This document shows, in pieces, positions 1-50,968 of a DNA stretch of 64,000 bases. Position 1 is the stretch's first letter, and the number at the start of each line of letters is the position of its first letter. This DNA is from a virus. The notes below the pieces were generated by a model. The model saw only the letters and a program-made list of their open reading frames with translations. It did no database searches and was not told the DNA's origin. The DNA lies in IMG/VR virus record IMGVR_UViG_3300042987_002221, positions 1 through 64,000 of that record; one strand, given 5' to 3'. The position numbers and the translations under genes were made by a program.

Positions 1-3000
1 CAATAGTTGGAACAAGATTCTCAAGCACTACTTTTGATTTTACTGACGATGAAAATCAGGATAATGACACTATTTTTGATAACAATGCAACACAATTTAT
101 AGATCAATATCCAAATGCAGGTGCAGTCTACATGTTTGATTATGTAAGTAATTACAATGAAAACATAAATGATCCTGGAAAATACATTTATGCACAAAGT
201 GTTAATTCAAATGATCAAACATATGGAAGTCAGCCTAAATATGGAACTGCACTTGACTTCAACAACTTTAACGTATTGATCGGAACACCAGATCAAGATG
301 ATGGTATCGTAACCGTCTATACTAATAGCACACGTTTATCAGATTGGCAAGTTTACAGACAGTCAAGCAAAGTTGTTGATATTGAAAAGATTGCAAACAT
401 CCAATTGTTTAGTGCTGAAACCAATAACACATTAGTTAATATGGATTATATTGATCCATTACAAGGAAAAATTCTTGGTGCGGCTAGACAAAATATCGAC
501 TTTATTAGTAACGCTGATCCAGCTGGATACAACTCTGGATCTAATGTTAATGGTAAGTTAGTTTGGGGTGCAACTCAAGTCGGACAAATATGGTTCAACA
601 CTTCAAATGTAAGATTCGTAAACTATCATCAAAACAATGATATTGCATACAATAGTGAATATTGGGCCACTTTATTCCCAGGTAGTGATGTAGCAGTTTA
701 TTCATGGATATCAAGTGATGTGTTGCCTATAAACTACACAGGTCCTGGAACAGTTTATGATTTTGATAGTTATTCAACTCAGTTCATAATAAATGATCAA
801 GGAACACTTACCCCAGTATATTTCTATTGGGTAAGAAATTCTAACATTATCTTCATAAATCAAGGTAAAACATTAGCAGATAGTATTATTGAACGTTATA
901 TAGCTTCCCCTAAGTTTTCTGGTATAAGCTATTTTGCTCCATTGTTACCTGATGTGTTTGCACTTTACAATTCAGGACCATATATCAATGCATCTGATAC
1001 TTTATTGAATATAGGATTTGCAACTGGAAATAGTGATGATTTGACTCACAATCAATATGATTTGATAAGATCAAATTATGCTGATGACTTTTTACCAGGC
1101 GTACCAGACACAGTAGATGGTGTTCCTATCTCATTGTATGACAGATTGTTAGATAGTTTTGCAGGTTTGGATGAAGAAGGAGAAAATGTACCTGATATTA
1201 ATTTACCTAAACTAGTTCAAACTGGTATACTTGTAAGACCCAGACAAAGCTTTTTCTACAATAGGTTATTGGCATTAAAAAATTATATTCAGTATACCAA
1301 CACAGTTTTATTACAGTTCCCAATAACTGAACTTAAGCAGTTTAGTTTATTGTTCACTGAGGGTGCGATCAATCCTTCAACAGTAGATAATCCAGAATGG
1401 CAAGGTGGTCCTTTACCATTCTATCGTACACAAGATTACTGGGAATATGCAAATTGGTGGGCAACTGGATACAGTAATAATACTAAAGCTGCATATCAGG
1501 TAACTTACTATGCTGATTTGTCAACATTAACTGTTCCTTTTGGCACAATCGTAAATGTCACACAAAACAATACAGTAGGTGTAGAGACATATATCTACAC
1601 AGAAGTAGGTTGGATAAGAATTGGATTGCAGAATGGAACTATACAATTTAGTTCTTTACTGTATGATTACAGTGCAGGAAAGATTGGATTCGGTGATAAT
1701 TTCTTTGATGCAACACCATTTGATTCTTTCCCATCACAAGAAACAAGAAATATCATTCGTGCGATCAACGAACAAATTTTCACTGATGAATTTTCTATCT
1801 TTAGAAACAAGAGTTTGATTTTACTTTTTGAGTATATTCAAAGTGAAACATTAGAAAATCAAAATTACTTGCCTTGGTTAAATAAAACTTCTCTTGTTGA
1901 TGTTTTCCATACAATCAGAGAACTTAGACCTATACAAAATTTACAAAATGACAATGATCAATTTTTGGAAGGATATATCAGAGAAGCTAAACCTTATCAC
2001 GTAGTTATTAAAGAATTCACATTTAGATACACAGGTACAGATGTATATGAAGGTAACATAACTGATTTTGATTTACCTGCACAATATAATACCTCTGTTG
2101 ATAACTTTGTTTCACCACAATTAGTTTACTCAAATCCTGATAATGTTTATACATATTCTACTACCAGTGATATTTGGAATGATCAAAACTATAATCAATG
2201 GTTTAGTAACAGAGGATTAAGTCTGTCTAGATATGAAAATGTTCCAATAACATATCTTAGTTCATATCTTGCACTGAATACAACTTCAATGTCGGTTAAA
2301 AACATTAACAGTTTTCCTGTAACGGGAACTGTAGTTATTGGTAACGAAATTATTCAGTACAATAATATTGACAGAGAATTGGGACTACTAACTGAACTAG
2401 TGAGAGGAGTAGATGGTACAGCTATTGAAACTCACATTCCAGGGGATCAAATTTATATTAACTTACCTGAAGTATTAGTAATGGAATCAGGTAGAAATTA
2501 TGTTGAAGTTCCTGATGTTTATGCATTGATAGACACTACTGTATTTCCTCCCCCAATAAAACCAGCGTTATTGCAAGCAATAATGAATAATGGTAGGGTA
2601 ATAGGTGTAGAAGTAATAGATCCTGGAAAAGGATATATGACTATTCCAGAAATAATAATTGAACCTTCAGTTACTTTAGGGTTTTCAACTACAAATGTGT
2701 CATTTGCTAATGATGATATTGCCTTCACAAGCTCAATTGATCTGGAAATTAATACATTACAGACAGGTGATTTGGTACAATATAAAGTTGTTTCTGGAAC
2801 AAATATTGGCAATTTGATAGATGGTCAATGGTATTACGTTAATGTTTTACAAATTACCCCAAATCTGAAAATAGGTTTATACAACAACATACATGATTGC
2901 TATAACAATTTCAACAGAATAGATTTGTTGAATTTAGGTACAGGTGAATATCAGTTATGTATGGGTGCGAAGGCTATTTCAGTTGTTACCTCTAGACCAA

Positions 3001-20026: not shown

Positions 20027-20027
20027 T

Positions 20028-20288: not shown

Positions 20289-20298
20289 AGTTTTTCCT

Positions 20299-21264: not shown

Positions 21265-21273
21265 ACTTTTTCC

Positions 21274-22173: not shown

Positions 22174-22176
22174 CAA

Positions 22177-24981: not shown

Positions 24982-24984
24982 AAT

Positions 24985-27893: not shown

Positions 27894-27894
27894 A

Positions 27895-28491: not shown

Positions 28492-28493
28492 AT

Positions 28494-30334: not shown

Positions 30335-30353
30335 AATATTTTTGGTATGTAAA

Positions 30354-30938: not shown

Positions 30939-30939
30939 A

Positions 30940-32309: not shown

Positions 32310-32337
32310 TGATATCCTTCAAAAGTTACAAGTTTAT

Positions 32338-33432: not shown

Positions 33433-36400
33433 TTATGAAAATATTCCAAAAGTTGTGTTTCCGCCTGTACTAACCATAGTCCAACTACTTGTTCCTATTT
33501 GTACTGGACTTGACCTATTGATTGTAGTGTTGTCACCTATTTGTCCGAAATTATTACGTCCCCATGTAAACAAAGCATTGTCACTACGAATTGCCGCGGT
33601 AAAAGAAAATCCAGCATTCACACTTGTCCAACTACTTGTTCCGATTTGTATTGGACTTGATCTATTAAACGTAGTGTTGTCTCCTACTTGACCGAAAACG
33701 TTTTCTCCCCATATAAATAGCAGTGAATCACTTCGTATAGCGGCAGTATGGTTCTCTCCTGCGGTTTCGGACACCCAACTGTTTGTACCTACCTGTGCTG
33801 GACTAGAAACACTTGATAAAATGTTTTCACCGACCTGTACTGGACTTGATATATTGTTACCACTAGTTCCGATTCCCAATTGACCATATCCCCTAGCTCC
33901 CCAGGTAAATAAAATATTATCGCTACGAATTGCTGCTGTATGAGTTCCTCCGGCACTTACCGTAGTCCAACTACTTGTTCCTATTTGTACTGGACTTGAC
34001 CTGTTGGCTGTTGCATTGTCACCTAATTGTCCCGAAATCCACAAACCCCAAGTAAATAATGCGCCGTCTGATCTAATTGCAGCGGTGTGAGTGCCACCTG
34101 CACTCACTGATGTCCAACTACTGGTTCCTATTTGTACTGGACTTGACCTGTCAATAGTAGAATCATTTCCTAATCTACCTGAACTACCTACTCCCCATGT
34201 AAATAAAATATTGTCGTTGCGAATTGCTGCTGTATGAGTTCCTCCAGCACTTACTGTAATCCAACTGCCGGTACCTATTTGTACTGGACTTGACCTGTCA
34301 ATAGTAGAATCATTTCCTAATCTACCTGAACTACCTACTCCCCATGTAAATAAAATATTGTCGCTGCGAATTGCTGCTGTATGAGTTCCTCCAGCACTTA
34401 CCGTAATCCAACTGTCGATACCTATTTGTACTGGACTTGACCTGTTGGCTGTTGCATTGTCACCTAGTTGCCCAAATCTATTATATCCCCAAGTAAATAA
34501 AGCACCATCAATTCTTAATGCAGTAGTGTGTGCTGCTCCTGCACTTATAGTAGTCCAACTACTTGCACCAATTTGAATTGGACTTGATCTATTGGTTGTG
34601 CCGTCACCTAATCTACCTAATGTTCCTAAACCCCAAGTAAATAATCTCCCATCAACTCTAATAGCACCAGTATGAAATACACCAGCACCTACTGATGTCC
34701 AACTACTTGTGCCTATTTGTATTGGACTGGATCTGTCGGTTGTTGTTCCGTCACCTAATCTACCTGAACTACCTGCTCCCCAAGTAAATAAAGCTCCGTC
34801 ACTTCGTATGGCAGCAGTATGGACATTACCTGCACTTACTGTGGTCCAACTATAAACATCAGTACATGTGCCTAATTGTCCTGATGTATTTAATCCCCAG
34901 GTAAATAAAATATTGTCACTACGAATTGCTGCTGTATGAGAACCACCTCCGCTCACGCTAATCCAACTGCTTGTTCCTATTTGTACTGGACTTGATTTGT
35001 CCACAGTAGTTTCATCACCTAATCTACCGTTAGCTCCCCAACCCCAAGTAAATAGTTTTCTATTGGCTGCTATTGCAGCAGTATGATACTGTCCGGCGCT
35101 AACACTAATCCAACAGCTTGTGCCAACCTGTACTGGACTTGACCTGTTAACATTAGAATTATCTCCCAATCTACCATTTGCTCCGAATCCCCAAGTAAAT
35201 AATCTTCCTCCTAATAATATACCAACAGTATGCGCTTGTCCTACACTTACATTTGCCCAACTATTTGTACCAATTTGTACTGGGCTTGATCTGTTAGTTG
35301 TAGTATCATCGCCTAATTGTCCGTCAAGATTTCTTCCCCATGTAAATAGTAATCTATCATTACGAATTGCTGCAACATGACTTGGTCCTGCACTTACTGA
35401 AACCCAACTGTTTGTTCCTATTTGCGAAGGGGTTGATCTATTAACAGTTGTAAAACCTATTAGTACCGGACTTGATCTGTTAACAGTGTTTAAATCACCT
35501 AATCTACCGGATGATCCTAATCCCCATGTGTATACCGTGTTATTGTTAAGTAAGGCTAACGTGTGAAATCCACCTGAACTTGTTACGGTCCAATTACTGG
35601 ATCCTATTACTACAGGACTTGATCTATCAATAGTGGAGTTATTTCCTAACCTACCGTTAGTTCCTGTTCCCCATGCAAATATTAAATTTGCTGTTGTAAT
35701 TGCTGTTGCAAAATTTACTCCAGCACTAACCTTACACCATGTATTTGCACCAACTTGCACAGGGCTACATCTATCCCCGCTGCTTAATCCAATACCTAAT
35801 TGACCAAATGAGCCTGCCCCCCATGTAAATAGTAAATTATCCTGTCTTATTCCTGTGCTAAAAAAACTACCAAGGCTTGCGCTTATATCTACCCAATTAT
35901 TAGATCCTATTTGTACTGGACTTGACCTATTTATTACAGTACCATCACCTAATTGCCCTGAACCACCGTTCCCCCAAGCCCAAAGTTTATTTGTATCACT
36001 AATAGCCAGTATATGGTCTCTTCCTGCACTTACTTTTGTCCAATTATTGGTGCCGACTTGCACTGGACTTGATCTATTTGTAGTGTCACCTAAGCCTAAT
36101 TGTCCACTATCATTAGATCCCCAAGTAAATAATTTATTAGAAAGTAATCCTGCTGCTACTGTTCTTCCTGCACTTACAGATGTCCAACTACTTGTACCTA
36201 TTTGAATTGGACTTGATTTATCTACAGTAGTTCCATCACCTAATTGTCCTGATGCATTTGCTCCCCAAACAAATAATGATCCATCATTACGAACGGCTAA
36301 ATTCCAATTTAAACCGGCACTTACACTTGTCCAGCTACTAGCGCCAATTTGAATTGGGCTAGATTCACTGACTGTACTGGCGTTACCTAATGCACCACTT

Positions 36401-36540
36401 GTACCTACTCCCCAAGTAAATAGTGAACCATCGCTGCGTATTGCTGCTGAATGACAGTATCCTGCACTTATAGTATTCCAACTTGTAGGAATGCTTCCTA
36501 ATTTTCCATAATTATTTTGTCCCCATGCATAAAGGAAAAA
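33433..36540 (-). repeat. RCC1-coding tandem repeat array (about 150-base units)
   Basis: Units of about 150 bases recur with near-identical stretches, for example sequences encoding SSPVQIGTSSW and HTAAIRSDN. Neighbouring units around 34120-34440 are almost identical over more than 100 bases, which points to recent duplication or gene conversion. Confidence 0.8.
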
Positions 36541-36759
36541 TGCATCGACCGAAGTCAATGATGCAAATAATGTACCGATGTCAGACCCTGTTTTTTTATA
36601 ATTTGTGGTTCCATATGGTAGACCACATGAAGCAGGTAGGTATAAATTAGATATATCATTGCCTGAAATTCTATAGCCTACGTCGGCAATTTTATTGGTA
36701 GTGCCTATAGGTGCAAATAAATTATCTAAATCAGTGCCATTTACTTTAAATCCGGCCAT
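33433..36759 (-). CDS. RCC1 beta-propeller giant protein, 21 repeats
   Basis: 1108 residues. The first 70 form a short domain with the repeated pattern G-x-D-(I/L)-x-(N/T)-LFA, shared with the larger RCC1 protein next door. The remainder is RCC1 repeats of about 50 residues (SSPVQIGTSSWTSVSAG followed by HTAAIRSDG and LFTWG). I count 21 WG cores by eye, three times seven, and a terminal half repeat that could close a propeller. No signal peptide. Ser/Thr content is very high. A tail fibre or adhesin role is inferred from the position behind a fibre-chaperone-like gene and from the late promoter upstream. Confidence 0.85.
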   Translation of the reverse strand: MAGFKVNGTDLDNLFAPIGTTNKIADVGYRISGNDISNLYLPASCGLPYGTTNYKKTGSDIGTLFASLTSVDAFFLYAWGQNNYGKLGSIPTSWNTISAGYCHSAAIRSDGSLFTWGVGTSGALGNASTVSESSPIQIGASSWTSVSAGLNWNLAVRNDGSLFVWGANASGQLGDGTTVDKSSPIQIGTSSWTSVSAGRTVAAGLLSNKLFTWGSNDSGQLGLGDTTNRSSPVQVGTNNWTKVSAGRDHILAISDTNKLWAWGNGGSGQLGDGTVINRSSPVQIGSNNWVDISASLGSFFSTGIRQDNLLFTWGAGSFGQLGIGLSSGDRCSPVQVGANTWCKVSAGVNFATAITTANLIFAWGTGTNGRLGNNSTIDRSSPVVIGSSNWTVTSSGGFHTLALLNNNTVYTWGLGSSGRLGDLNTVNRSSPVLIGFTTVNRSTPSQIGTNSWVSVSAGPSHVAAIRNDRLLFTWGRNLDGQLGDDTTTNRSSPVQIGTNSWANVSVGQAHTVGILLGGRLFTWGFGANGRLGDNSNVNRSSPVQVGTSCWISVSAGQYHTAAIAANRKLFTWGWGANGRLGDETTVDKSSPVQIGTSSWISVSGGGSHTAAIRSDNILFTWGLNTSGQLGTCTDVYSWTTVSAGNVHTAAIRSDGALFTWGAGSSGRLGDGTTTDRSSPIQIGTSSWTSVGAGVFHTGAIRVDGRLFTWGLGTLGRLGDGTTNRSSPIQIGASSWTTISAGAAHTTALRIDGALFTWGYNRFGQLGDNATANRSSPVQIGIDSWITVSAGGTHTAAIRSDNILFTWGVGSSGRLGNDSTIDRSSPVQIGTGSWITVSAGGTHTAAIRNDNILFTWGVGSSGRLGNDSTIDRSSPVQIGTSSWTSVSAGGTHTAAIRSDGALFTWGLWISGQLGDNATANRSSPVQIGTSSWTTVSAGGTHTAAIRSDNILFTWGARGYGQLGIGTSGNNISSPVQVGENILSSVSSPAQVGTNSWVSETAGENHTAAIRSDSLLFIWGENVFGQVGDNTTFNRSSPIQIGTSSWTSVNAGFSFTAAIRSDNALFTWGRNNFGQIGDNTTINRSSPVQIGTSSWTMVSTGGNTTFGIFS

Positions 36760-36844: not shown

Positions 36845-39800
36845 TTACGCCTTTAATAATCCTAAAGTAAATGTGTCACCTGCACCTATCGCAGACCAAC
36901 TATTACTACCTATTGATACTGGACTTGATCTATCTATGGTATTTTGGGTACCTAAACGTCCTGAACTACCTGCTCCCCAAGCAAACAAAAGACCGTCTGT
37001 TCTAATTGCAGCAGTATGTGCTGTGCCTGCACTAATTGCGGTCCAACTACTGGATCCAATTTGTACTGGACTTGATCTGTCAATTGTTGTTCCGTCACCT
37101 AATCTACCTGATGTACCTGCTCCCCATGTAAAAAGTGTATAGTCACTACGTATTGCAGCGGTGTGTGAAGCATTACTATTAACTTGACGCCAACTATTAA
37201 AATTAACAAGTATTGGTGATGATGATTGGCTTATTCCGCCTAAAACAGTGAGTGTTGAAGTAGTCTGTGTGACAGTTGAGTTATTTCCTATTTGTCCTGA
37301 CCCTCCTCCCCCCCACATATATAAAAGTGAATTTGATGTGATTCCGCCATTACTTTGAATTACAGTCCAACTTTGTGTACCTATTTGTACTGGACTTGAA
37401 CGGGTATTAGTTGTTCCATCTCCCCAATAATCGCTCCCCCATCCATATATCAAATTAGTGTTATTAATTGCCCAGGTACTACCTCCAAATGATATGTTTA
37501 CCGCTGTCCAACTATTTGTTCCTATCTGCACAGGACTAGAGTTTGTAGTTCTTGTATTATCTCCTATTTGTCCTGATGTATTTGATCCCCAGGTAAATAA
37601 TGCACCATCAGCGCGAATTGCACCGGAGTTATAACCTCCTGCACTAATTGCGGTCCAACTACTGGATCCAATTTGCACTGGACTGTTTTTGTTTATTGTT
37701 GTTCCGTCACCTAATTGTCCTGATGTATTTGATCCCCAGGTAAATAACGCCCCGTCACTTCGCAAAGCAATTGCATGTCTGCGTCCGGCTGAAACTTGAG
37801 TCCAACTGCTGGTTCCTATGTTCACTGGGCTAGTGTCAAATGCTACTCCTGAACCTTGACCTAATTGCCCTACACTATTATCACCCCAACTAAAAAGTCT
37901 CCCATCAACGCGAATAGCAAAACTTGTAAGTTCGGTTGCTGCTGCAATTGCAATCCAACTGCTGGTTCCTATTTGTACTGGACTAGAATAATCAATTTGG
38001 TTACCTTGTCCCAATGCTCCGTTAGTTCCTCTACCCCATGCAAATAATCGCCCGTCGATACGTATAGCTAAACTAACATTGGTTCCTTGACTAATAGCAG
38101 TCCAACTGCTTGTTCCGATTTGTACTGGACTCGACCTATTGATTTTGGTGTTGTCACCTACTTGTCCAAAATCATTAAGGCCCCAACTAAACAATAAATC
38201 GTCATTACGTATCGCTAATACTGTGTTAACGACAACAGATAAATTCTTCCAAGTTAGAGGTGCAGTATTTCCAAATTGTCCATATCTATTACTTCCCCAT
38301 GTATATAAATATCCATCACTTCGTATAGCATGTGCATTTATGTAACCTGCAGTTACAGCGGTCCAACTGCTTGAACCAATTTGTACTGGACTACTACGGT
38401 TAACCGTAGTTCCGTCTCCCAAACGTCCGCTACTGTTTAATCCCCATGTAAATAATGAGCCATTATTTTTGATTGCAGCAGTAAAGGGGCCATTTTTACC
38501 GGCACTGACACTAGTCCAACTGCTTGTTCCTAATTGAACTGGACTTGATCTGTTTATTGTAGTATCATCACCTATTTGCCCTGAACTGTTACTTCCCCAT
38601 ACAAATAATGCATTGTCACTTCTTATTGCCGCAGTATGTGATGCACCTGCACTTATACTAGTCCAACTACTTGATCCAATTTGTATAGGGCTTGATCTGG
38701 ACAATATTGTGCCGTCCCCAAGTTGACCAAGATTATTACTCCCCCATGCAAATAATAATTTATCACTTCTTATTGCCATAGAATGAGACGCACCTGCACT
38801 TACGGATGTCCAACTACTTGTGCCTATTTGATTAGGGGATGAAGTATCAATTGGTTGTCCTCCTACTTGTACTGGACTTGATCTATTGATTGTAGTGTTG
38901 TCACCTATTTGTCCTGATGCATTTGCTCCCCATGTAAATAATAAGCTATCTTGTTTTATTGCTGCTGTGTGAGTAATACCTGCACTTACACTAGTCCAAC
39001 TGCTTGTTCCAATTTGTACTGGACTTGATCTGGTTATAGTGGTATTGTCACCTATTTGTCCTGATGAATTGAATCCCCAGGTAAATAATGAACCATCAAT
39101 TCTTATTGCTGCTGTGTGAGTACCACCTGCATTTACGGTAGTCCAGCTACTTGTTCCAATTTGCACTGGACTTGATCTATTAATGGTGTCGTTTGTCCCT
39201 AATCTACCCGAACTGCCTGCACCCCAAACAAATAAACCATTATCTTGTCTTATTGCAGCAGTGTGCGTTGCACCTGCACTTACAGATGTCCAACTGCTAT
39301 TTCCAATTTGAACTGGATTAGAAAAAGAAGTTATTAGTATACCTCCTAATACAACTGGACTTGATCTAGCGATAGTTGTATTATCACCTAATTGTCCTGA
39401 AGTTCCTAATCCCCAAGCATATAATGTGTTATCAATTTCTAGTCCTAAAGTTGAATTACCACCACTACTAATTGTAGTCCAACTACTTGTTCCTATCTGT
39501 ACCGGACTTGATCTGTTAATAGTAGTATTATCACCCAATTGACCTGATGAATTTAATCCCCAGGTAAATAAAGCACCATCACTTCTTATTGCAGAGGTAT
39601 GAGTGAAGCCAGCACTTACAGATGTCCAACTGCTTGTTCCAATTTGTACTGGGCTTGATTTACTAATAGTTGTGCCATCTCCTAAACGTCCTGAACTACC
39701 TAAACCCCAAGTAAATAATGCACTGTCTGTTCTAATTGCTGCTGCAAAACAACATCCCGCACTTACTGATGTCCAACTGCTGGTTCCAACTTGAACTGGA

Positions 39801-42800
39801 GAAAAAACCTGTACTGGATTTATATTACCTAAAATTAATGGTGTTGAGTTGCTTATATTGGTGTTATTACCTATTCTTCCTGAACTTCCTTCACCCCAAA
39901 TATATGCTACAGCGGTACTATCAATTGCTGACATAAAATCTTGTCCTGCACTTACTGATGTCCAACTACTTGTTCCAATTTGCACTGGACTTGATCTGTT
40001 AATAGTAGTATTATCACCCAATTGACCTGATGAATTGAATCCCCAGGTAAATAAAGCACCATCACTTCTTATTGCAGCAGGATTTGATGAATTTTCACCT
40101 GCGCTTACAAATGTCCAGCTGCTTGATCCTATTTGGGCGGGGATTGATCTATCTATGGTATTTCCATCACCTAATCTACCGTTAGCTCCTAAACCCCAAG
40201 TAAAAAGTAAATTGTTTGAATTTATAGCTGCTGCAAAATTATATCCTGCACTTATTGCTATCCAACTACTAGTGCCTACTTGCACTGGAGAAGAAACTAG
40301 CAATGGGTTGATATTGCCTAATACTACTGGACTTGATCTAGTTATATTAGTGTTATCACCTATTCTACCTGAAGTACCATATCCCCAAAGATATGCAACA
40401 GAGCTGTTATCAATAGCCGACATAGATGCAGAACCTGCGCTTATACTAGTCCAACTTCCGGTACCTATTTGTACTGGACTTGATCTTCTAACTGTCGTAC
40501 CGTCTCCTAATGCTCCTAAACCATTACAGCCCCATGTAAATAGTAAACCATCATTACGAATTGCTGAAGTAAAATTAAGTACTCCTGCACTTACACTAGT
40601 CCAACTACAATTGCCAATTTGCACTGGAATGGATCGATTTATAGTTGAATTATCTCCTAGTTGACCGAAAAGATTATGTCCCCAGGTGAATAAGCCTCCA
40701 TCGTTACGGATAGCAGCAGTGAACAGATCCCCGCCTGCACTTACTGTTGTCCAACTACTTGATCCAACTTGCACAGGTGATGATCTTGGTTCTACAGCAA
40801 TACTGCCCACTAACACCAATGACGATCTACTTGTAGTTGAGTTGTTGCCTAATTGACCAGTATTTGCCGCACCTGTAATTTGTAAATCAGATGATAATAG
40901 TCCTATTACTCCTGTATTATTTCCCCCTGCGCTTACTTTAGTCCAAGTACTAGCACCGATTAGTACTGGACTTGATCTGTTAACTGAAGTGCCGTCTCCT
41001 AATTGTCCGTCAAGTCCTCTTCCCCATGTAAATAAAGTATTATTAATTGTTATTGCAGCAGTATGCGCTTCTCCTGCGCTTACTGCTGTCCAGCTATTTG
41101 TTCCTACTTGTACTGGGCTTGACCTAGCAATAATTGAATTATCACCTAATCTACCACTTGTTCCATATCCCCAAGTAAATAATGAACCACCTTGCCTTAT
41201 TGCTACTACATGTGCTTGTCCTGCGCTTACGGCTGTCCAACTACTCGTTCCAACTTGCACTGGACTGGATCTATTTAGTGTACCGCCATCACCCAATCTA
41301 CCATTTGAACCTGCTCCCCAAGTAAATAATCTACCGTCGTCATTTCTTATCGCAGCAGTCATTTGAAGTCCTGCACTTATAGTAGTCCAACTACTTGTGC
41401 CAATTTGCACTGGGCTTGATTTACTTGTTGTAGTACCGTCGCCCATTTGCCCGAAATTATTTAATCCCCAAGTAAATAACAAACTATCCGATTTGGTAGC
41501 TACTGTATGAGAACCACCTGCAGCTACGGCAGTCCAACTACTTGTGCCGATTTGTACTGGGCTTGATCTATTAATAGTTGTGCTATCACCTAATCTACCT
41601 GCACCACCTGCTCCCCAAGTAAATAAAGCACCGTCTGTTCTAATTGCGGCTGTGTGTGCAACTCCGGCACTTACACTGGTCCAACTGCTTGTTCCAATTT
41701 GCACTGGACTGGATCTATTTATTGTAGTACCATCACCCAATTGTCCATAGTTATTTAATCCCCAAGCATATAATATGTTAGTATTTGTTATAGCCGTAAC
41801 ATGAGAACGACCAAAAGAAACTGCATTCCAGCTTAATACTGCTGTTACTTCTCCTAATTGTCCTGATGCATTATCCCCCCATGTAAATAATGCACCATCC
41901 TGTCTTATTGCTGCGGTATTTCCATTTCCTGTACTAACAGTGGTCCAGCTACTTGTTCCAAGTTGTACTGGACTGGATCTATTTAGTGTACCGCCATCAC
42001 CCAATCTACCTGATGTTCCGAATCCCCAAATGAATAAAGAACCATCCTGTCTTATTGCTGCTGTGCTATAGGTTCCTGCACTGATACTAGTCCAACTGCT
42101 TGTTCCTACCTGTACTGGACTTGATCTGTTTACGGTTGTGTTGTCTCCTAATTGCCCTACACTATTAGAACCCCAAGTAAATAATCTTCCATCACTTCTT
42201 ATAGCTGTGCTATGTGAAAATCCTGCACTTACTGATGTCCAGCTGCTTACACCTACTTGTACTGGGCTTGACCTATCAAAAGTGTCTCCGCTTCCTAATC
42301 TACCTGCACCACCTGATCCCCACGTAAACAAAAGACCATCTGATCTAATAGCTAATACTTGTCCATTTCCTGATGCTATCGCGTTCCAACTTTGAACAGC
42401 AGTTAACCATCCTAATTGTCCGCAACCTCCAGTTCCCCATGTAAATAGTCTTCCGTCATTTCTAGTGGCTGCTGTAAAGTTATTTCCTGCGCTAACGGTA
42501 GTCCAACTACTTGTTCCAATTTGTACTGGACTAGACCTATTAACGGTATTACTGTCTCCTAATCTACCTGTTGCACCGCATCCCCAAGTGAATATTGAAC
42601 CATCTAATCTTACTGCCGCAGTATGAAAACATCCTGCACTTACTGTTGTCCAACTACTAGTTCCTATTTGTACCGGACTTGATCTATCAATTGTAGTATT
42701 GTTTCCCAAACGACCTGCACCACCTGCTCCCCAAGTAAATAATCTTCCGTCACTTCGTATTGCAGCAACGTGAGTGGCCCCTGCATCTACACTAGTCCAA

Positions 42801-45800
42801 CTACTTGTTCCTATTTGTACCGGACTTGATCTATCAATAATGTCATTTGTCCCTAATCTACCCGAACTACCTGCTCCCCAAGTAAACAAACCACCATCTG
42901 ATCTAATAGCGGCGACATTCCCTACTCCGGATGAAATTGTTGTCCAACTTTGAACAGTGGTTAGCCAACCTAAATTTCCTCCTCTTCCATATCCCCATGT
43001 AAACAATGCACCATCTAAACGTATTGCAGCGGTATTATAAAATCCTGCACTTACACTTGTCCAACTGCTTGTACCAATTTGTACTGGACTAAACTTATTA
43101 ATAGTAGTTCCATCACCTAATCCACCACATAGACCGCATCCCCAAGTAAATAATGAACTACCATTTCTGATTGCAGCAGTATGTGCAAAACCAGCACTCA
43201 CACTTGTCCAACTACTAGTTCCAATTTGCACGGGACTTGATCTATTAATGGAACCGTCATCACCTAATTGTCCATCAAGACCTCTTCCCCAAGTAAATAA
43301 TGATCCATCCTGTCTTATTGCTGCTGTGTGTGCATTTCCGGCACTTACACTAGTCCAACTGCTCGTTCCTATTTGTACTGGGCTTGATCTATCAATTGTA
43401 GTATTATCACCTAATCTACCACTTGTTCCTGCTCCCCAAGTAAACAAACCACCGTCTGTTCTAATTGCAGCAGAATGTGATGCACCTGATGCAATTGATG
43501 TCCAACTTTGAATAAATTCAGTTCTTCCTAATTGTCCAAAATTATTAAGGCCCCAACCAAATAAAGCTCCATCATTCCTTATGGCCATCATATATGGACC
43601 GCCATCACTTGAATTTACAGATGTCCAACTACTTGTTCCAATTTGGACTGGACTTGATCTGGTTATAGTGGCATTGTCACCCAATTGACCTGATGCATTT
43701 GCTCCCCATGTAAATAATGAGCCATTACTTCTGATTGCCGCAGTTTGACTATTTCCTGCACTTACTGATGTCCAACTACTAGTTCCTATTTGTACTGGAC
43801 TTGATCTATTAATGGAACCGTTATCACCTAATTGTCCAACATTATTAAGGCCCCATATAAATAATGCACCATCTTGTCTTATTCCTGCTGTATAGTAAGT
43901 TCCTGCACTAACGGCAGTCCAACTACTTATACCTACTTGAGTTGGCACAGATACGGACGTAGTTATAGCACCTATTTGTGCTGGTATTGATCTAGATATG
44001 GTATTTCCGTCACCTAATAAACCGTTAGCTCCTAAACCCCAAGTAAACAAAGTCTTATCAAGGTTAATTGCCAATGTTTGAAAACAAAATCCTGCATTTA
44101 CTGTTGTCCAACTAGCTGTACCTATTTGTACTGGACTTGATCTATTAGTTCTTGTACCATCACCCAATGAACCCCGAATATTATATCCCCAAGTAAATAA
44201 TATACCATCATTTCTAATTGCCGCTGTAACTACATTACCTGCACTTACAGTAGTCCAACTACTTGTTCCAATTTGAATTGGACTTGATTTATCTACAGTA
44301 GTTCCATCACCTAATTGTCCTGTTGCATTACTCCCCCAGGTAAATAATGAATCACCTTGTCTTATTGCAGCGGTATGAAAGCGTCCTGCACTTACTGTTG
44401 TCCAACTACTAGTTCCTATTTGTACCGGGCTTGATCTATCAATGGTGTCATTTGTCCCTAATCTACCCGAAGTACCTAAACCCCAAGTAAATAATGCACC
44501 ATCTTGTCTTATTGCTGTTGAATGTAAGTATCCTGCACTTATTGTTGTCCAGCTGCTTGTTCCAATTTGTACTGGGATTGAATTATTGCAAAGGTTGCAT
44601 CCTACTAAAGTTGGATTACTTCTATTTACAATTGAACTTGTTCCTAATCTACCACTTGTTCCTGCTCCCCATGTATATAAAAAATTATTCCCGTCAATAG
44701 CTCCGGCATGATTAGTTCCTCCTCCCAAAATAGTCCAACTACTTGTACCAATTTGCACCGGACTGGATCTATCAAGAGTGGTTCCGTCACCTAATCTACC
44801 TGCACTACCTGAACCCCAGCTAAATAAAAGTCCGTCATTTCTTTTTGCAATAGTGCTAACGTTTGCGCTAAATATCGCAGTCCAACTATTTGTTCCAATT
44901 TGCACTGGACTTGATCTGTTATCAGTGTCATTTAGCCCTAATTGTCCATAAATATTGCTCCCCCAGGTAAATAAAGCGCCATCACTTCGTATAGCAGCAC
45001 TATGAGACTGCCCTTCACTTATAACTGTCCAACTGCTTGTTCCTATTTGTACTGGACTAGATTGAAGGCCAATGGAATTGTTTCCTAATTGGCCAGTGGC
45101 GTTGAATCCCCAAGTAAACAATCCGCCATCATTTCTAATTGCCATTGTAGTTGCATTACCTGCACTTACACTTGTCCAACTGCTTGTACCGATTTGTACT
45201 GGACTTGATCTACTAGTTACAGTTCCGTCACCTAATTGCCCTACATTGTTTCGCCCCCATGTGAATAAAGTGTTATCACTGCGTATTGCTACTGCATGTG
45301 TGTTTCCTGAAGCAACAGTAGTCCAGCTACTTGTACCAATTTGAACTGGACTTGATCTGTCAATCGTTGATTGGTCTCCCACCTGTCCATGATTATTTCT
45401 ACCCCAAACAAAAAGTGAATTATCTTGTCTTATTGCTAATGTAGTATATGCACCTGAAGCAACAAAAATCCAACTACTTGTGCCAAGTTGAACCGGAATT
45501 GATCTGTTTATATTGTCATTTAGCCCTAATTGTCCAAAACTATTGCTCCCCCAGGTAAATAAAGCGCCATCACTTCTGATTGCAACGGAATGAGTTGAAC
45601 TTGAACCTGAGCCAATTGTACTCCAGCTATATAAAGGTGTCAGTTGTGTAGTTTGTCCTGATTCATTTCCTCCCCAAGTAAATAATGCACTATCAGTTCG
45701 TAATGCGATAGTATGAGAAAGACCCATGCTTACTGCTGTCCAACTGCTTGTTCCTATTTGAACTGGACTTGATCTATCAATTGTTGTTCCGTCCCCTAAT

Positions 45801-46200
45801 CTACCTGAACTACCTGCGCCCCAAGTAAACAATGCACCGTCATTTCTTATTGCAGCAGTTTGTTGTGGTCCTGCACTTACTGATGTCCAACTACTTGTGC
45901 CTATTTGCACAGGACTGGATTTGTCAATAGTCGAACCATCACCTAATGCTCCTTGAGTATTAACTCCCCATGTAAATAAAATACCATCACTTCTTATAGC
46001 AGCAGTATGAAAACCCGAGCTTATTGATGTCCAACTATTAATTAGTCCTAATTGACCTGATGCATTTCCTCCCCAAGTAAATAATCTACCATCACTTCTT
46101 ATAGCAGTTGAATGATTTGTTCCGGCACTAACTATATTCCAACTATATATAGGAGTTGTTATTGCGGTTTGCCCGTCAGAATTACCTCCCCATGCATATA
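36845..46200 (-). repeat. RCC1-coding tandem repeat array (about 150-base units)
   Basis: About 63 coding repeats of roughly 150 bases. Many share long identical DNA tracts, such as those encoding SSPVQIGTSSWTSVSAG, while the loop between the WG core and SSPVQ varies. Shorter units lacking the SSPVQ segment mark block boundaries. Confidence 0.85.
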
Positions 46201-46432
46201 AAAATAAGGTAGCTGGACCCAATGAACCATAAGCAGCAAATAATGTTCCTATATCACTGTTGTTTTTAAAAATATTGGTTGTGCCGTAAGGCGTTCCGAA
46301 CTCTGCACCTGCATATAAGTTAGATATATCTGACCCTGAAGATAAAAATCCAGTGTCTGCAATTTTGGTACAGGAACCTATTGGAGCAAATAAAGTGTCT
46401 AAATCTATACCATTAACTAAAAATCCTGACAT
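36845..46432 (-). CDS. RCC1 beta-propeller giant protein, 63 repeats
   Basis: 3195 residues. It starts with the same 70-residue domain as the smaller paralogue (GFLVNGIDLDTLFAPIG, SDISNLY, SDIGTLFA). The rest is RCC1 repeats; I count 63 repeat cores by eye, one of them degenerate, nine times seven. Irregular linkers (for example LGNINPLLVSSPVQVG or LGWLTTVQSW) interrupt the array every 3-7 repeats. It ends in a half repeat (SWSAIGAGDTFTLGLLKA). No signal peptide or membrane span. No Shine-Dalgarno; a late-promoter octamer ends 8 bases before the ATG. Likely a very long fibre or surface adhesin; role inferred. Confidence 0.85.
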   Translation of the reverse strand: MSGFLVNGIDLDTLFAPIGSCTKIADTGFLSSGSDISNLYAGAEFGTPYGTTNIFKNNSDIGTLFAAYGSLGPATLFLYAWGGNSDGQTAITTPIYSWNIVSAGTNHSTAIRSDGRLFTWGGNASGQLGLINSWTSISSGFHTAAIRSDGILFTWGVNTQGALGDGSTIDKSSPVQIGTSSWTSVSAGPQQTAAIRNDGALFTWGAGSSGRLGDGTTIDRSSPVQIGTSSWTAVSMGLSHTIALRTDSALFTWGGNESGQTTQLTPLYSWSTIGSGSSSTHSVAIRSDGALFTWGSNSFGQLGLNDNINRSIPVQLGTSSWIFVASGAYTTLAIRQDNSLFVWGRNNHGQVGDQSTIDRSSPVQIGTSSWTTVASGNTHAVAIRSDNTLFTWGRNNVGQLGDGTVTSRSSPVQIGTSSWTSVSAGNATTMAIRNDGGLFTWGFNATGQLGNNSIGLQSSPVQIGTSSWTVISEGQSHSAAIRSDGALFTWGSNIYGQLGLNDTDNRSSPVQIGTNSWTAIFSANVSTIAKRNDGLLFSWGSGSAGRLGDGTTLDRSSPVQIGTSSWTILGGGTNHAGAIDGNNFLYTWGAGTSGRLGTSSIVNRSNPTLVGCNLCNNSIPVQIGTSSWTTISAGYLHSTAIRQDGALFTWGLGTSGRLGTNDTIDRSSPVQIGTSSWTTVSAGRFHTAAIRQGDSLFTWGSNATGQLGDGTTVDKSSPIQIGTSSWTTVSAGNVVTAAIRNDGILFTWGYNIRGSLGDGTRTNRSSPVQIGTASWTTVNAGFCFQTLAINLDKTLFTWGLGANGLLGDGNTISRSIPAQIGAITTSVSVPTQVGISSWTAVSAGTYYTAGIRQDGALFIWGLNNVGQLGDNGSINRSSPVQIGTSSWTSVSAGNSQTAAIRSNGSLFTWGANASGQLGDNATITRSSPVQIGTSSWTSVNSSDGGPYMMAIRNDGALFGWGLNNFGQLGRTEFIQSWTSIASGASHSAAIRTDGGLFTWGAGTSGRLGDNTTIDRSSPVQIGTSSWTSVSAGNAHTAAIRQDGSLFTWGRGLDGQLGDDGSINRSSPVQIGTSSWTSVSAGFAHTAAIRNGSSLFTWGCGLCGGLGDGTTINKFSPVQIGTSSWTSVSAGFYNTAAIRLDGALFTWGYGRGGNLGWLTTVQSWTTISSGVGNVAAIRSDGGLFTWGAGSSGRLGTNDIIDRSSPVQIGTSSWTSVDAGATHVAAIRSDGRLFTWGAGGAGRLGNNTTIDRSSPVQIGTSSWTTVSAGCFHTAAVRLDGSIFTWGCGATGRLGDSNTVNRSSPVQIGTSSWTTVSAGNNFTAATRNDGRLFTWGTGGCGQLGWLTAVQSWNAIASGNGQVLAIRSDGLLFTWGSGGAGRLGSGDTFDRSSPVQVGVSSWTSVSAGFSHSTAIRSDGRLFTWGSNSVGQLGDNTTVNRSSPVQVGTSSWTSISAGTYSTAAIRQDGSLFIWGFGTSGRLGDGGTLNRSSPVQLGTSSWTTVSTGNGNTAAIRQDGALFTWGDNASGQLGEVTAVLSWNAVSFGRSHVTAITNTNILYAWGLNNYGQLGDGTTINRSSPVQIGTSSWTSVSAGVAHTAAIRTDGALFTWGAGGAGRLGDSTTINRSSPVQIGTSSWTAVAAGGSHTVATKSDSLLFTWGLNNFGQMGDGTTTSKSSPVQIGTSSWTTISAGLQMTAAIRNDDGRLFTWGAGSNGRLGDGGTLNRSSPVQVGTSSWTAVSAGQAHVVAIRQGGSLFTWGYGTSGRLGDNSIIARSSPVQVGTNSWTAVSAGEAHTAAITINNTLFTWGRGLDGQLGDGTSVNRSSPVLIGASTWTKVSAGGNNTGVIGLLSSDLQITGAANTGQLGNNSTTSRSSLVLVGSIAVEPRSSPVQVGSSSWTTVSAGGDLFTAAIRNDGGLFTWGHNLFGQLGDNSTINRSIPVQIGNCSWTSVSAGVLNFTSAIRNDGLLFTWGCNGLGALGDGTTVRRSSPVQIGTGSWTSISAGSASMSAIDNSSVAYLWGYGTSGRIGDNTNITRSSPVVLGNINPLLVSSPVQVGTSSWIAISAGYNFAAAINSNNLLFTWGLGANGRLGDGNTIDRSIPAQIGSSSWTFVSAGENSSNPAAIRSDGALFTWGFNSSGQLGDNTTINRSSPVQIGTSSWTSVSAGQDFMSAIDSTAVAYIWGEGSSGRIGNNTNISNSTPLILGNINPVQVFSPVQVGTSSWTSVSAGCCFAAAIRTDSALFTWGLGSSGRLGDGTTISKSSPVQIGTSSWTSVSAGFTHTSAIRSDGALFTWGLNSSGQLGDNTTINRSSPVQIGTSSWTTISSGGNSTLGLEIDNTLYAWGLGTSGQLGDNTTIARSSPVVLGGILITSFSNPVQIGNSSWTSVSAGATHTAAIRQDNGLFVWGAGSSGRLGTNDTINRSSPVQIGTSSWTTVNAGGTHTAAIRIDGSLFTWGFNSSGQIGDNTTITRSSPVQIGTSSWTSVSAGITHTAAIKQDSLLFTWGANASGQIGDNTTINRSSPVQVGGQPIDTSSPNQIGTSSWTSVSAGASHSMAIRSDKLLFAWGSNNLGQLGDGTILSRSSPIQIGSSSWTSISAGASHTAAIRSDNALFVWGSNSSGQIGDDTTINRSSPVQLGTSSWTSVSAGKNGPFTAAIKNNGSLFTWGLNSSGRLGDGTTVNRSSPVQIGSSSWTAVTAGYINAHAIRSDGYLYTWGSNRYGQFGNTAPLTWKNLSVVVNTVLAIRNDDLLFSWGLNDFGQVGDNTKINRSSPVQIGTSSWTAISQGTNVSLAIRIDGRLFAWGRGTNGALGQGNQIDYSSPVQIGTSSWIAIAAATELTSFAIRVDGRLFSWGDNSVGQLGQGSGVAFDTSPVNIGTSSWTQVSAGRRHAIALRSDGALFTWGSNTSGQLGDGTTINKNSPVQIGSSSWTAISAGGYNSGAIRADGALFTWGSNTSGQIGDNTRTTNSSPVQIGTNSWTAVNISFGGSTWAINNTNLIYGWGSDYWGDGTTNTRSSPVQIGTQSWTVIQSNGGITSNSLLYMWGGGGSGQIGNNSTVTQTTSTLTVLGGISQSSSPILVNFNSWRQVNSNASHTAAIRSDYTLFTWGAGTSGRLGDGTTIDRSSPVQIGSSSWTAISAGTAHTAAIRTDGLLFAWGAGSSGRLGTQNTIDRSSPVSIGSNSWSAIGAGDTFTLGLLKA

Positions 46433-46530: not shown

Positions 46531-47013
46531 TTAGCCTTGAAAGGTTGGCCATACTAAATTACTTAAATCTTCCTGCAAAGTAATGTCTGCTAAAGCTTGC
46601 ATATAAGTATCTAAATTTTCTAAAGTGTCAGTTGGTGTCAAACCCATTCTGACTTGACGTTCATAACGTGTATACCGCCATTCAAAATCACTCATTAATT
46701 TATCTCTTTGAATACGAATGGGGACTAATAATTCTTCACGGGTTGGAGGTACATAATGAGGAATCAAAATTAATTCTCTATGTTCATAAACTTCACCATT
46801 TTGTACGCTATATGTAGGAAAATCACTCATTCTATATAATGAAGGATCAAAACTTGTGGTATCCCTAATAATTCTTACAAACCCGTTTTCACGCATAAAG
46901 GCTTCATCATTGCTACAACGTGTATTAAAATTATTGATACCATTCCAAAATTTTGGAATACTGTCATAAACACCTTTAACTTCATTATTAACCAAATTTG
47001 CATAAACTGTCAT
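46531..47013 (-). CDS. Putative tail fibre assembly chaperone
   Basis: The ATG at 47013 is preceded by CGGAG; a longer frame would add 13 unlikely residues. The 160-residue product has an N-terminal part with TVYANLVNNEVKGVYDSIPKF and a C-terminal helical block TREELLVPIRIQRDKLMSD then LDTYMQALADIT, which resembles the RD-x-LL and YRQAL-D motifs of phage fibre-assembly proteins. Such chaperones are usually encoded next to the fibre they fold, here the giant RCC1 protein. Family assignment is by pattern only. Confidence 0.6.
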   Translation of the reverse strand: MTVYANLVNNEVKGVYDSIPKFWNGINNFNTRCSNDEAFMRENGFVRIIRDTTSFDPSLYRMSDFPTYSVQNGEVYEHRELILIPHYVPPTREELLVPIRIQRDKLMSDFEWRYTRYERQVRMGLTPTDTLENLDTYMQALADITLQEDLSNLVWPTFQG

Positions 47014-47041
47014 TTTATTCTCCGAGTTGTAAAGTTTTAAG

Positions 47042-47049
47042 TATTTATG
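47042..47049 (-). promoter_or_regulatory. T4-type late promoter-like octamer (minus strand)
   Basis: The minus strand reads CATAAATA about 29 bases before the chaperone-like start, so the leader keeps its CGGAG site. It lies back to back with a plus-strand octamer five bases away. Confidence 0.5.
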
Positions 47050-47053
47050 CATT

Positions 47054-48491: not shown

Positions 48492-49595
48492 ATGTCATCA
48501 AAGCAAGTTTCAGAAAACCTCACTATCACCAGCGTTCAAACACGTAAGGCGCTGTTGAAGGCATTTGACGCTAAACGTCCAGTATTTCTTTGGGGCCCGC
48601 CAGGAATCGGTAAGAGTGAAGTTGTCAACGAAGTAGCTGAGGAACTGGGAGGCTATGTAATTGATCTTCGTATGGCTCAAATGGAGCCAACTGATATCCG
48701 TGGTATTCCCTTCTACAATAAGGAAATCGGTAAGATGGATTGGGCTAGTCCAGTTGATCTGCCCGATGAGGAACTTGCCAGTAAGTATCCAATCGTAGTT
48801 CTGTTCCTTGATGAAATGAACTCCGCTCCCCCTGCTGTTCAGGCTGCAGGTTATCAACTGATTCTTAACGGTCGAGTCGGTAAGTACAAGCTTCCTGACA
48901 ATGTTCGTATCGTTGCTGCGGGTAACCGTGAAAGTGACAAGGGTGTGACATATCGTATGCCGCTTCCCCTCGCTAATCGTTTTATTCACGTTGAAATGCG
49001 AGCCGACTTTTCAAGCTGGCAACACTGGGCTGTTAACAAGGGCATTCACAAGGATGTGGTTGGTTATCTGAGTTTTGCAAAGCAAGACCTTTGCGATTTT
49101 GATAGCAAGGTTGCTAGCCGTGCATTCCCCACTCCTCGTAGCTGGGTGTTCGTTAGCGATCTTCTCAAGGATGAGTCAGTGGATACTGATACTCTGTTCA
49201 ACCTTGTTGCAGGTGCAGTCGGCGAAGGTCTGGCAGTGAAGTTTATGGCTCACCGTAAGGTATCAGGCAAGATGCCCGAACCTAGCGATATTCTTGCAGG
49301 TAAGGTCAAGGAACTTCAAGTCAAGGAAGTGTCCGCAATGTACTCACTAACGGTTTCTATGTGCTACGAATTGCGTGATGCATTGCAAACTAAGAAGGTT
49401 TCTCAGCAGGAATTCAACGGAATGGTTGATAACTTTCTTGGCTTCATCATGGATAACTTTGAACCTGAGTTGGTTATCATGGGTGCTAAGATTGCGATCA
49501 AGACTTACAAGCTACCCTTCCAATATCAAAAGCTTGCCAACTTTGAAACATTCAACAAGAAGTTTGGTAAGTATATTCTTGAAGCAGGCAACTAA
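48492..49595 (+). CDS. MoxR-type AAA+ ATPase
   Basis: 367 residues. Walker A GPPGIGKS (35-42), Walker B VVLFLDEMN (102-110), sensor AAGN (142-145) and PLANRF (159-164) are all intact. MEPTDIRGIP is typical of the MoxR/dynein-related AAA_5 group. MoxR ATPases act as chaperones for metal-dependent VWA partners, and such a gene lies directly downstream. GC content by eye is near 47 percent in sampled lines, against 30-35 percent elsewhere. Substrate unknown; remodelling a host or phage complex early in infection is inference. Confidence 0.85.
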   Translation: MSSKQVSENLTITSVQTRKALLKAFDAKRPVFLWGPPGIGKSEVVNEVAEELGGYVIDLRMAQMEPTDIRGIPFYNKEIGKMDWASPVDLPDEELASKYPIVVLFLDEMNSAPPAVQAAGYQLILNGRVGKYKLPDNVRIVAAGNRESDKGVTYRMPLPLANRFIHVEMRADFSSWQHWAVNKGIHKDVVGYLSFAKQDLCDFDSKVASRAFPTPRSWVFVSDLLKDESVDTDTLFNLVAGAVGEGLAVKFMAHRKVSGKMPEPSDILAGKVKELQVKEVSAMYSLTVSMCYELRDALQTKKVSQQEFNGMVDNFLGFIMDNFEPELVIMGAKIAIKTYKLPFQYQKLANFETFNKKFGKYILEAGN

Positions 49596-49629
49596 GGTTG
49601 CGATTGCTAGGGAGGTAAAACTCCCTTTC

Positions 49630-49657
49630 GAGGGCGGGTTCGCCCGCTCTCTTTTTT
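49630..49657 (+). terminator. Intrinsic terminator
   Basis: GAGGGCGGG, loop TTCG and CCCGCTCTC form a GC-rich stem (one G-U pair) followed by six T residues. It lies between the MoxR and VWA genes and probably attenuates the downstream gene. Confidence 0.85.
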
Positions 49658-49678
49658 CTATAACTGTATGGAGCAAAT

Positions 49679-50968
49679 ATGAGTGAAGTAATTGGTAAAA
49701 CTAAAAAGAAGTCTCGTAACGCCAAGTTTGACAATCTCATTGGTCCTACTGATCCTAAGATTGATGCGCAGGCACGTGACCGTCTTATTACGGCGCGTGT
49801 TGGTCTTCTGCTCAATCACGCATTTTTCGGTAATCTAGCGACACGGCTAAAACTAATCAACAGTGATGATTGGTGTTCAACTGCCGCAACCGACGGTCGT
49901 AATTTCTATTACAACAGTAAGTTTATCATGATGCTTAAGACTAAGGAAGTTGAATTCCTGGTAGCTCATGAAATCTTGCATGTGGTATATGATCACATGG
50001 GCCGTCGTGAAAGTCGTGACCACCAACTCTTTAACATTGCCAATGACTATGCAGTAAATGCGGATCTTAAGAAGCATAAGATTGGTGAATTTATTAGTAC
50101 TGTACCCTGCCTTTATGATCAAAAGTATGAAGGCATGACCAGTGAGGAAATTTATGATGAGCTAATGAAGAATGCTAAACAAGTTTCACTTGACCAACTA
50201 GTGGATCAGATGATTGATGACCATTTGGAAGGTGAAGGTGAAGGTGATGGCGATGAGGACGGGGATGATGCAAAAAATAAAAGCAAGCGTCCTAAGATGT
50301 CGGAAGAAGAACGTGAACGGCTGCGTCAGGAAATCAAGCAGGCTGTTATCAATGCAGCATCTTCTTCTGAAGCAGGGAGTATTCCCAAGGGTGTAGAACG
50401 CCTTATTAAGGATATGACCAATCCAGTAATGCCCTGGCGTGATCTTATCCAAATCAATCTAACTAGTGCAATTCGTACTGATTTTAGTTGGATGCGTCCT
50501 AGTCGTCGTAGTTGGCATATGGATGCAATCATGCCAGGTATGACTCCTGGACAAGAAATTGATGTTGTGGTAGCGATTGATATGTCAGGCTCTATCTCAG
50601 ACAAGCAGGCTCAGGCTTTTCTTGCAGAGGTAGGTGGCATGATGGAATCGTTTGATGGGTATCGTGTCCATGTCTTCTGTTTTGATACTGAAATTTATAA
50701 CCCACAAAACTTCAATAGTGAAAACATGGAAACTATTGAAACCTATCAACCTCAAGGTGGTGGCGGTACTGACTTTACTGCTATCTTTAGGCATCTGGTC
50801 GAACAAGAAAATGTACCAAAGCGTTTGATTGTTTTTACTGATGGTCTTCCTTTTGGTTCATGGGGAACAGAAGACTATTGTGATACGTTGTGGATCATTC
50901 ATGGTAGTAAGGATATTGTTCCTCCCTGGGGTACATATGCTTATTATGATGAACATAAAAATAATTAA
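49679..50968 (+). CDS. VWA-domain protein with N-terminal metallopeptidase-like domain
   Basis: 429 residues. VEFLVAHEILHVVYDH (HEILH at 97-101) is a zinc-peptidase-like site as in DUF2201 proteins. A highly acidic linker (about 180-200) follows. The C-terminal domain has a complete MIDAS site: Asp301-x-Ser303-x-Ser305, Thr364 in GGTDF and Asp388 in FTDG. Pairing with a MoxR ATPase is a common arrangement in which the ATPase loads or remodels the VWA protein. TGGAG precedes the ATG. The GC-rich codon usage matches its upstream partner. Confidence 0.8.
   Translation: MSEVIGKTKKKSRNAKFDNLIGPTDPKIDAQARDRLITARVGLLLNHAFFGNLATRLKLINSDDWCSTAATDGRNFYYNSKFIMMLKTKEVEFLVAHEILHVVYDHMGRRESRDHQLFNIANDYAVNADLKKHKIGEFISTVPCLYDQKYEGMTSEEIYDELMKNAKQVSLDQLVDQMIDDHLEGEGEGDGDEDGDDAKNKSKRPKMSEEERERLRQEIKQAVINAASSSEAGSIPKGVERLIKDMTNPVMPWRDLIQINLTSAIRTDFSWMRPSRRSWHMDAIMPGMTPGQEIDVVVAIDMSGSISDKQAQAFLAEVGGMMESFDGYRVHVFCFDTEIYNPQNFNSENMETIETYQPQGGGGTDFTAIFRHLVEQENVPKRLIVFTDGLPFGSWGTEDYCDTLWIIHGSKDIVPPWGTYAYYDEHKNN

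Follow-up and report, generated by a model that had tools for sequence, protein, structure and literature searches.

How does a single phage polypeptide arrange 63 RCC1 repeats in space, and for what use? The question is raised by a 3195-aa open reading frame (P0001, 36845-46432, minus strand) in the window, the 64,000-nucleotide stretch of DNA analysed here, which belongs to a virus record of 121,204 bases. The neighbouring frame (P0002, 33433-36759, minus strand) encodes 1108 aa. Pfam families PF00415 and PF25390 match P0001 with E=0, in a search that counted 50 RCC1 stretches, and both proteins consist of RCC1 repeats all along except for an N-terminal domain of ~75 aa; beyond it the P0001 chain holds RCC1-type repeats only and ends with a closing half repeat. 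The initial annotation had counted 63 repeats in P0001 (one degenerate) and 21 in P0002, and had predicted from these multiples of seven a string of nine seven-bladed propellers. Both counts held. P0001 has 63 literal WG dipeptides and 63 true blades, with two exceptions that offset each other: one blade carries two WG (WGSDYWGDG, aa 2998-3006) and one, near aa 1850, carries none (LQITGAANTGQLG). P0002 has 22 WG, one pair of which (WGWG) belongs to a single blade, leaving 21 blades. A 36-residue blade-core profile also gave 63 and 21 blades, both divisible by seven, plus the half repeat.

The usual blade-to-blade linker is ~13 aa long (DGTTINRSSPVQI). Eight linkers of P0001, at blades 1, 2, 5, 19, 23, 27, 31 and 54, are short (0-5 aa) and lack the SSPVQ strand, and eight, at blades 12, 16, 38, 41, 44, 47, 50 and 61, are long (26-28 aa) and contain two SSPVQ-like strands (for example RSSPVVLGNINPLLVSSPVQVG). 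When short linkers are read as opening and long linkers as closing marks, the marks of P0001 balance, as (1(2(5)12)16(19(23(27(31)38)41)44)47)50(54)61, and each bracket pair, inner pairs excluded, has seven blades of its own in all nine domains. Three domains are whole leaves (5..12, 31..38 and 54..61, seven blades each); the split domains contain 3+4, 4+3, 4+3, 4+3 and 1+3+3 blades, and the root 1+4+2. P0002 parses as (1)8(12)19, which gives two domains of seven and a root of 1+4+2, the same root layout as in P0001. The cut-offs (open <=8 aa, close >=23 aa) were picked after inspection of P0001 and applied to all proteins. Random placement of the marks satisfied the rule in P0001 with p<=1.2e-10, shuffling of the labels with 1.2e-4 and shuffling of the spacings in 0/200000 trials; P0002 by itself is weak (1.7e-3, random placement). 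Seven blades per domain result only if the two kinds of mark are paired as brackets, which points to propellers inserted into propellers in the form of a tree. The half repeats at the N terminus (LFLYAWGG) and C terminus (NSWSAIGAGDTFTLGLL) of P0001 are complementary and would therefore close the first, outermost propeller; the C-terminal half repeat had been proposed to close the last propeller, and it does appear to close a ring, but a different one. The predicted parts, from the bracket parse except where another basis is given, and the adjoining gene are as follows.

36845-46432, minus: P0001, giant RCC1 protein, N-terminal domain and 63 blades predicted to form nine nested seven-bladed propellers (Pfam, blade count, parse)
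46190-46432, minus: N-terminal domain of P0001, ~aa 1-80 (alignment; 99% conserved in contig L014)
46154-46270, minus: root propeller A part 1, blade 1, with the N-terminal strand of the closing blade
38264-38824, minus: root propeller A part 2, blades 51-54
36911-37204, minus: root propeller A part 3, blades 62-63, then the C-terminal half repeat that would close the ring
46046-46153, minus: propeller B part 1, blade 2
43517-43933, minus: propeller B part 2, blades 17-19
38825-39304, minus: propeller B part 3, blades 48-50
45632-46045, minus: propeller C part 1, blades 3-5
43934-44563, minus: propeller C part 2, blades 13-16
44564-45631, minus: propeller D, leaf in C, blades 6-12 (AF2, UVR8 match, replaced in L014)
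42959-43516, minus: propeller E part 1, blades 20-23
39305-39787, minus: propeller E part 2, blades 45-47
42401-42958, minus: propeller F part 1, blades 24-27
39788-40276, minus: propeller F part 2, blades 42-44
41843-42400, minus: propeller G part 1, blades 28-31
40277-40765, minus: propeller G part 2, blades 39-41
40766-41842, minus: propeller H, leaf in G, blades 32-38, blade 38 degenerate
37205-38263, minus: propeller I, leaf in root, blades 55-61, one with WGSDYWGDG
33433-36759, minus: P0002, paralogue; root propeller of blades 1, 9-12 and 20-21
35419-36492, minus: inserted leaf of P0002, blades 2-8
33790-34860, minus: inserted leaf of P0002, blades 13-19
46531-47052, minus: tail-fibre assembly chaperone-like gene, directly upstream of P0001 (Phage_tail_APC PF16778, phrog_4912)

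Leaf D, cut at the short linker that follows blade 5 and at the long linker that follows blade 12, was modelled with AlphaFold2 from an alignment with 27 further bracketed leaves. The model (pLDDT 92.6, pTM 0.90) has 28 strands, 7 x 4, and matches UVR8 with TM 0.93 at 1.6 A. Since it is closed and has 28 strands, the bracketed piece is predicted to be a complete ring; the blade count suggests that the split propellers form seven-blade rings as well. Within a repeat the strands follow one another as D (SSPVQ) - A (SSW) - B (HTAAIR) - C (LFTWG), and in the secondary structure of the leaf D model all turns are tight except the C-D loop of ~14 residues. This loop, the longest in the repeat, is probably the inter-blade connection. 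Variable blade positions lie in SAG-xx-H, which is the A-B turn, in WG-x-N-xx-G, at the start of the C-D loop, and, for one more, in DG-x-LF. By the direction of the strands, the first two of these sites fall on one face, which is likely both the binding face and the face where children grow. Leaf D also aligns with the 654-aa phage protein A0A6J5KNY1 (BFVD) over 555 columns at 2.9 A with ~200 gap columns; such a gap is what an interrupted ring would give, and this entry could be a nested-ring model.

We consider it very probable that the nine seven-bladed beta-propellers of P0001, of RCC1/BLIP-II type, form a tree that arose through recursive insertion; the protein is probably a tail-fibre adhesin whose rings can be exchanged. 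Each child would be a whole propeller, beginning with strand A of blade one and ending with strand D of blade seven, and would occupy the parent's C-D loop, which joins LFTWG (strand C) to SSPVQ (strand D). With insertion always in this loop, the parent ring would be interrupted between blades. The chain would leave the parent through a short linker, where the SSPVQ strand is missing, complete the child, and return through a long linker, one SSPVQ-like strand of which would end the child while the other resumes the parent, so that each child would be held by two chain crossings. In the proposed tree A would carry B and I, B would carry C and E, and C would carry D; along the long arm E would carry F, F would carry G, and G would carry H. 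The 4|3 split, the commonest here among non-root rings, would set a child nearly opposite its parent's own attachment and so extend the arm, and A-B-E-F-G-H is accordingly expected to form an extended arm. The assembled tree in three dimensions is predicted from these sequence marks.

Scans of viral contigs found about 200 RCC1 loci. Of the 50 complete, cleanly segmented, non-duplicate proteins with both half repeats, 47 have a multiple of seven blades (7, 14, 21, 28, 35, 42, 49 or 63; naive binomial 2e-36, ignoring kinship among the relatives), bearing out the multiple-of-seven rule among phage relatives. Count violators are L016 (46), L024 (34), the second gene of L034 (20), L035 (20) and L068 (8). 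With the same cut-offs, all-seven parses were obtained for L036 (49 blades, 7 propellers), L017 (42, 6), L029 and L046 (35, 5), L025/L030 and L034 (28, 4), and L042, L032 and L018 (21, 3), and also for proteins fetched after the rule was fixed, L093 (42 blades, 6 propellers), L131 (35, 5) and L114 (14, 2). Ten 4(7)3 modules of the G+H kind, from P0001 and nine relatives, align in register. Sixteen clean proteins carry two or more marks, and 12 of them parse perfectly. Of the exceptions, L016 (46 blades) equals L017 plus four extra blades that include an unmatched opening mark, and its shared cores (L016 1227-8234, L017 2000-8455) are 100% identical, the extra blades being either a misassembly or a fresh duplication; L087 has one domain of 14, which the cassette comparison splits into 7+7; L047 needs one unmarked opening; and L022 contains a mis-segmented blade. 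L024 (34 blades) is the perfectly parsing L029 minus one blade, with identical aligned cores. Length-coded marks are lacking in L045, L064, L015, L165 and BUCT-ZZ01 despite 14, 21 or 28 blades, and these proteins may be linear or otherwise marked. Giants with other inserted stretches (L083, 5577 aa; L067; L072; L082) gave no clean parse and stand outside the statistics. Such stretches occur at several places in L083 (3248-19978), whose 91 blade cores (13 x 7) make it possibly a 13-ring relative. Two adjoining RCC1 frames of ~4227 and ~2277 aa lie on one 144-kb virus contig (G004 / L012), the first of them exceeding P0001 in size. On balance, we favour an open-ended recursive bracket grammar that builds branched trees, with ring numbers from 2 to 9 and perhaps as high as 13 (L083), and with leaves serving as specificity cassettes.

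Comparisons of close relatives bear on the leaves. The L014 contig is colinear with the window from 53745 to 43679 and is 98-99% identical to it outside the RCC1 gene and in the N-terminal domain. Its DNA identity to P0001 is 0.74-0.86 in blades 2-5 and 0.81-0.88 in blades 13-17 (0.74-0.88 for both halves of parent C), and 0.59-0.67 in leaf D (blades 6-12). All marks are kept despite 28% different residues, and dS is 0.64 against P0001 as compared to 0.03-0.08 in the flanking genes. These identities indicate a separate history for leaf D and a common one for the two separated halves of parent C. L038 and L071 diverge over two long blocks, blades 19-25 and 27-33, which coincide exactly with the two bracketed leaves; blade 26 between them is 0.97 identical, the other blades are mostly 0.86-1.0, and a third, short divergent stretch comprises blades 6-7. 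L018 and L033 differ chiefly in blades 7-10, ending at a closing mark. We infer from these patterns that leaf propellers pass as cassettes from one close relative to another, which would change what is bound. A diversity-generating-retroelement target was considered and rejected: reverse transcriptase (RVT_1) gave no match in the 121-kb record, which may be incomplete. Recombination is therefore the likelier source of the variation.

The genomic context suggests where such a protein might act. The gene upstream of P0001 matches PF16778 (Phage_tail_APC, E 2.5e-7) and phrog_4912 (tail fiber assembly), and the terminase is of T4 type, its relatives in the PA5oct group sharing 50% identity with it; together with the structural genes this indicates a tailed phage. 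Elsewhere in the window, an ATPase gene (phrog_1297) lies beside a DUF2201/VWA protein as a MoxR-VWA-like pair (48492-50968), and a 2707-aa ORF (132-8255), for which Pfam gave no match, partially matches the 3324-aa virion structural family phrog_10938. Directly downstream of the RCC1 genes, a minus-strand run (19172-33390) encodes two sulfotransferases, an epimerase, a DegT aminotransferase, an FkbM methyltransferase, DUF4422, a GT25 glycosyltransferase and 2OG-Fe(II) oxygenases, and these sugar-modification genes may decorate the fibre. The RCC1 genes of the cultured cyanophages BUCT-ZZ01 and S-SRM01 lie close behind tail-fibre or baseplate genes, and those of S-SRM01 adjoin oxygenase, sulfotransferase and glycosyltransferase genes. 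The N-terminal domains of P0001 and P0002 (65% identity in alignment) are putative anchoring domains and possibly a common virion anchor; in a search of viral contigs with the N-terminal domain, L014 was the only match. Three copies of an x-D-L/I-x-x-L-F/Y motif occur in this domain (46190-46432 and 36520-36759), and a domain with these motifs is kept across RCC1 giants having different trees.

Taken together, this context suggests that P0001 is a virion protein with a receptor-binding role, a tail-fibre or whisker adhesin, and it makes an extreme fibre architecture plausible. The main challenge to this function accepts the architecture and makes the protein something else, for example an internal capsid protein that organises DNA. 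Eukaryotic RCC1 binds nucleosomes, and a DNA-ordering role in the capsid has been proposed for the RCC1 proteins of phAPEC6 (PMC7247149). A tail-fibre chaperone directly upstream of P0001 and the position of the RCC1 genes behind tail-fibre and baseplate genes in cultured relatives argue otherwise, and cassette exchange and a hypervariable face better suit surface recognition. The RCC1 protein gp1 of GAP32 was found in virions by mass spectrometry (PMC5259590). We therefore lean towards a surface adhesin over DNA ordering, and regard the combination of this architecture with a non-adhesin function as unlikely.

The architecture itself could be read as the initial annotation had it, as a linear string of nine propellers whose odd linkers are incidental. 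Multiples of seven (63 and 21) fit such a string, and bacterial RCC1 proteins are built in this way: under the same analysis, bacterial chromosomal RCC1 proteins mostly had 7, 14 or 21 blades in series, with long inter-domain gaps mostly at blade 7 (and 14), and none showed balanced marks. Because these proteins keep the sevens and are nevertheless linear, blade numbers divisible by seven belong to the fold as such, whereas nesting belongs, within the proteins compared here, to those of phages. Linear seven-blade phasing of P0001 was rejected, as its marks fall at no fixed residue modulo 7 and no boundary feature is present at blades 7, 14, 21, 28 or 35. A linear string, moreover, leaves unexplained why two balancing linker kinds pair into sevens (p<=1.2e-10) and why the divergent cassettes are the bracketed leaves, and we consider it distinctly improbable. 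Of the nine-propeller string, nine closed seven-bladed propellers thus survive, on the bracket parse and the leaf D model, and the linear order (7, 14, 21) does not.

Even less probable is a superhelix, open or irregular, or a set of rings that vary in size, with the sevens derived from duplicated seven-repeat DNA units. The blades of P0001 are very alike, and the predicted structure of the nested pair G+H is of low confidence (14 blades, AF2, ten-row alignment, pLDDT 63.9, pTM 0.49); it matches UVR8 with TMt 0.82 over 363 columns, which shows only some seven blades closing. Leaf D, however, closes as a 28-strand ring, and split domains (4+3, 3+4, 1+4+2) still total seven. The best-matching blade pairs inside P0001 are separated by 8, 29, 17, 12, 1, 41... 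blades, not by 7, so an origin by seven-repeat DNA duplication was rejected. Between the propellers of P0001 and P0002, blade identity gave no clear one-to-one correspondence. That misassembly of metagenomic contigs produced the bracket pattern, as the small differences within L016/L017 and L024/L029 (4 or 1 blades, cores identical) might suggest, is scarcely credible, since misassembly would break sevens rather than create them, the marks recur across independent contigs and studies, and L014 has the same marks at 28% different residues.

The nested tree can be compared with known systems. P0001 shares its repeat (PF00415/PF25390) with the RCC1/BLIP-II superfamily (UVR8, RCC1, HERC1/2, RPGR, BLIP-II), and leaf D shares the seven-bladed, 28-strand ring (UVR8, TM 0.93), but the members known so far have one ring or several in linear order, whereas P0001 is predicted to nest nine rings in one chain. 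HERC2-like and bacterial linear multi-propellers have a boundary every seven repeats; P0001 does not (1, 2, 5, 12, 16, 19, ...). Propeller 3 of CPSF160 is assembled from three separate stretches of the chain, and the topology of DDB1 is likewise not linear (PMC5760199). The topology parsed for P0002, a root of three pieces with two inserted rings, is of the same kind. CPSF160 and DDB1, however, belong to another propeller family, of WD40 type, and have three rings in one fixed topology, whereas here the predicted insertion is recursive, reaching depth six and nine rings in P0001, is branched, and takes different forms in different relatives. Rak2-like jumbo phages (GAP32 gp1, 121Q, phAPEC6) also encode RCC1 proteins, and those of GAP32 and PBECO4 match leaf D (BFVD); they are ~385 aa, the size of one ring, and are encoded by many separate genes, unlike the one nested giant here. 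S-SRM01 resembles the window phage in having 2OG-Fe(II) oxygenase and sulfotransferase genes beside RCC1; the RCC1 proteins of BUCT-ZZ01 and S-SRM01 have 14 blades or about one ring each and are without clear length-coded bracket marks. A survey of highly repetitive propellers, in which near-identical blades are amplified and RCC1/BLIP-II is a large group, had a maximum of 47 blades, without a high-quality model, and the words insertion and nested are absent from its text (PMC9218822). In the open-access literature we found no description of recursive propeller nesting, which is weak evidence, and only CPSF160/DDB1 was relevant.

Domain insertion is known already. To our knowledge, no protein fold is more deeply nested than an insertion of depth six with seven blades per ring. 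If the bracket reading is true, any such phage protein could be read from its linker lengths alone, and the predicted shapes would be open to electron microscopy. It would also bear on how repeat proteins count, since each ring would keep its blade number even when its blades come from two or three stretches far apart in the chain. If the leaves are binding cassettes, these proteins would be a natural branched display scaffold, and surface-recognition fibre would be a better reading of the phage RCC1 genes that are named 'regulator of chromosome condensation'.
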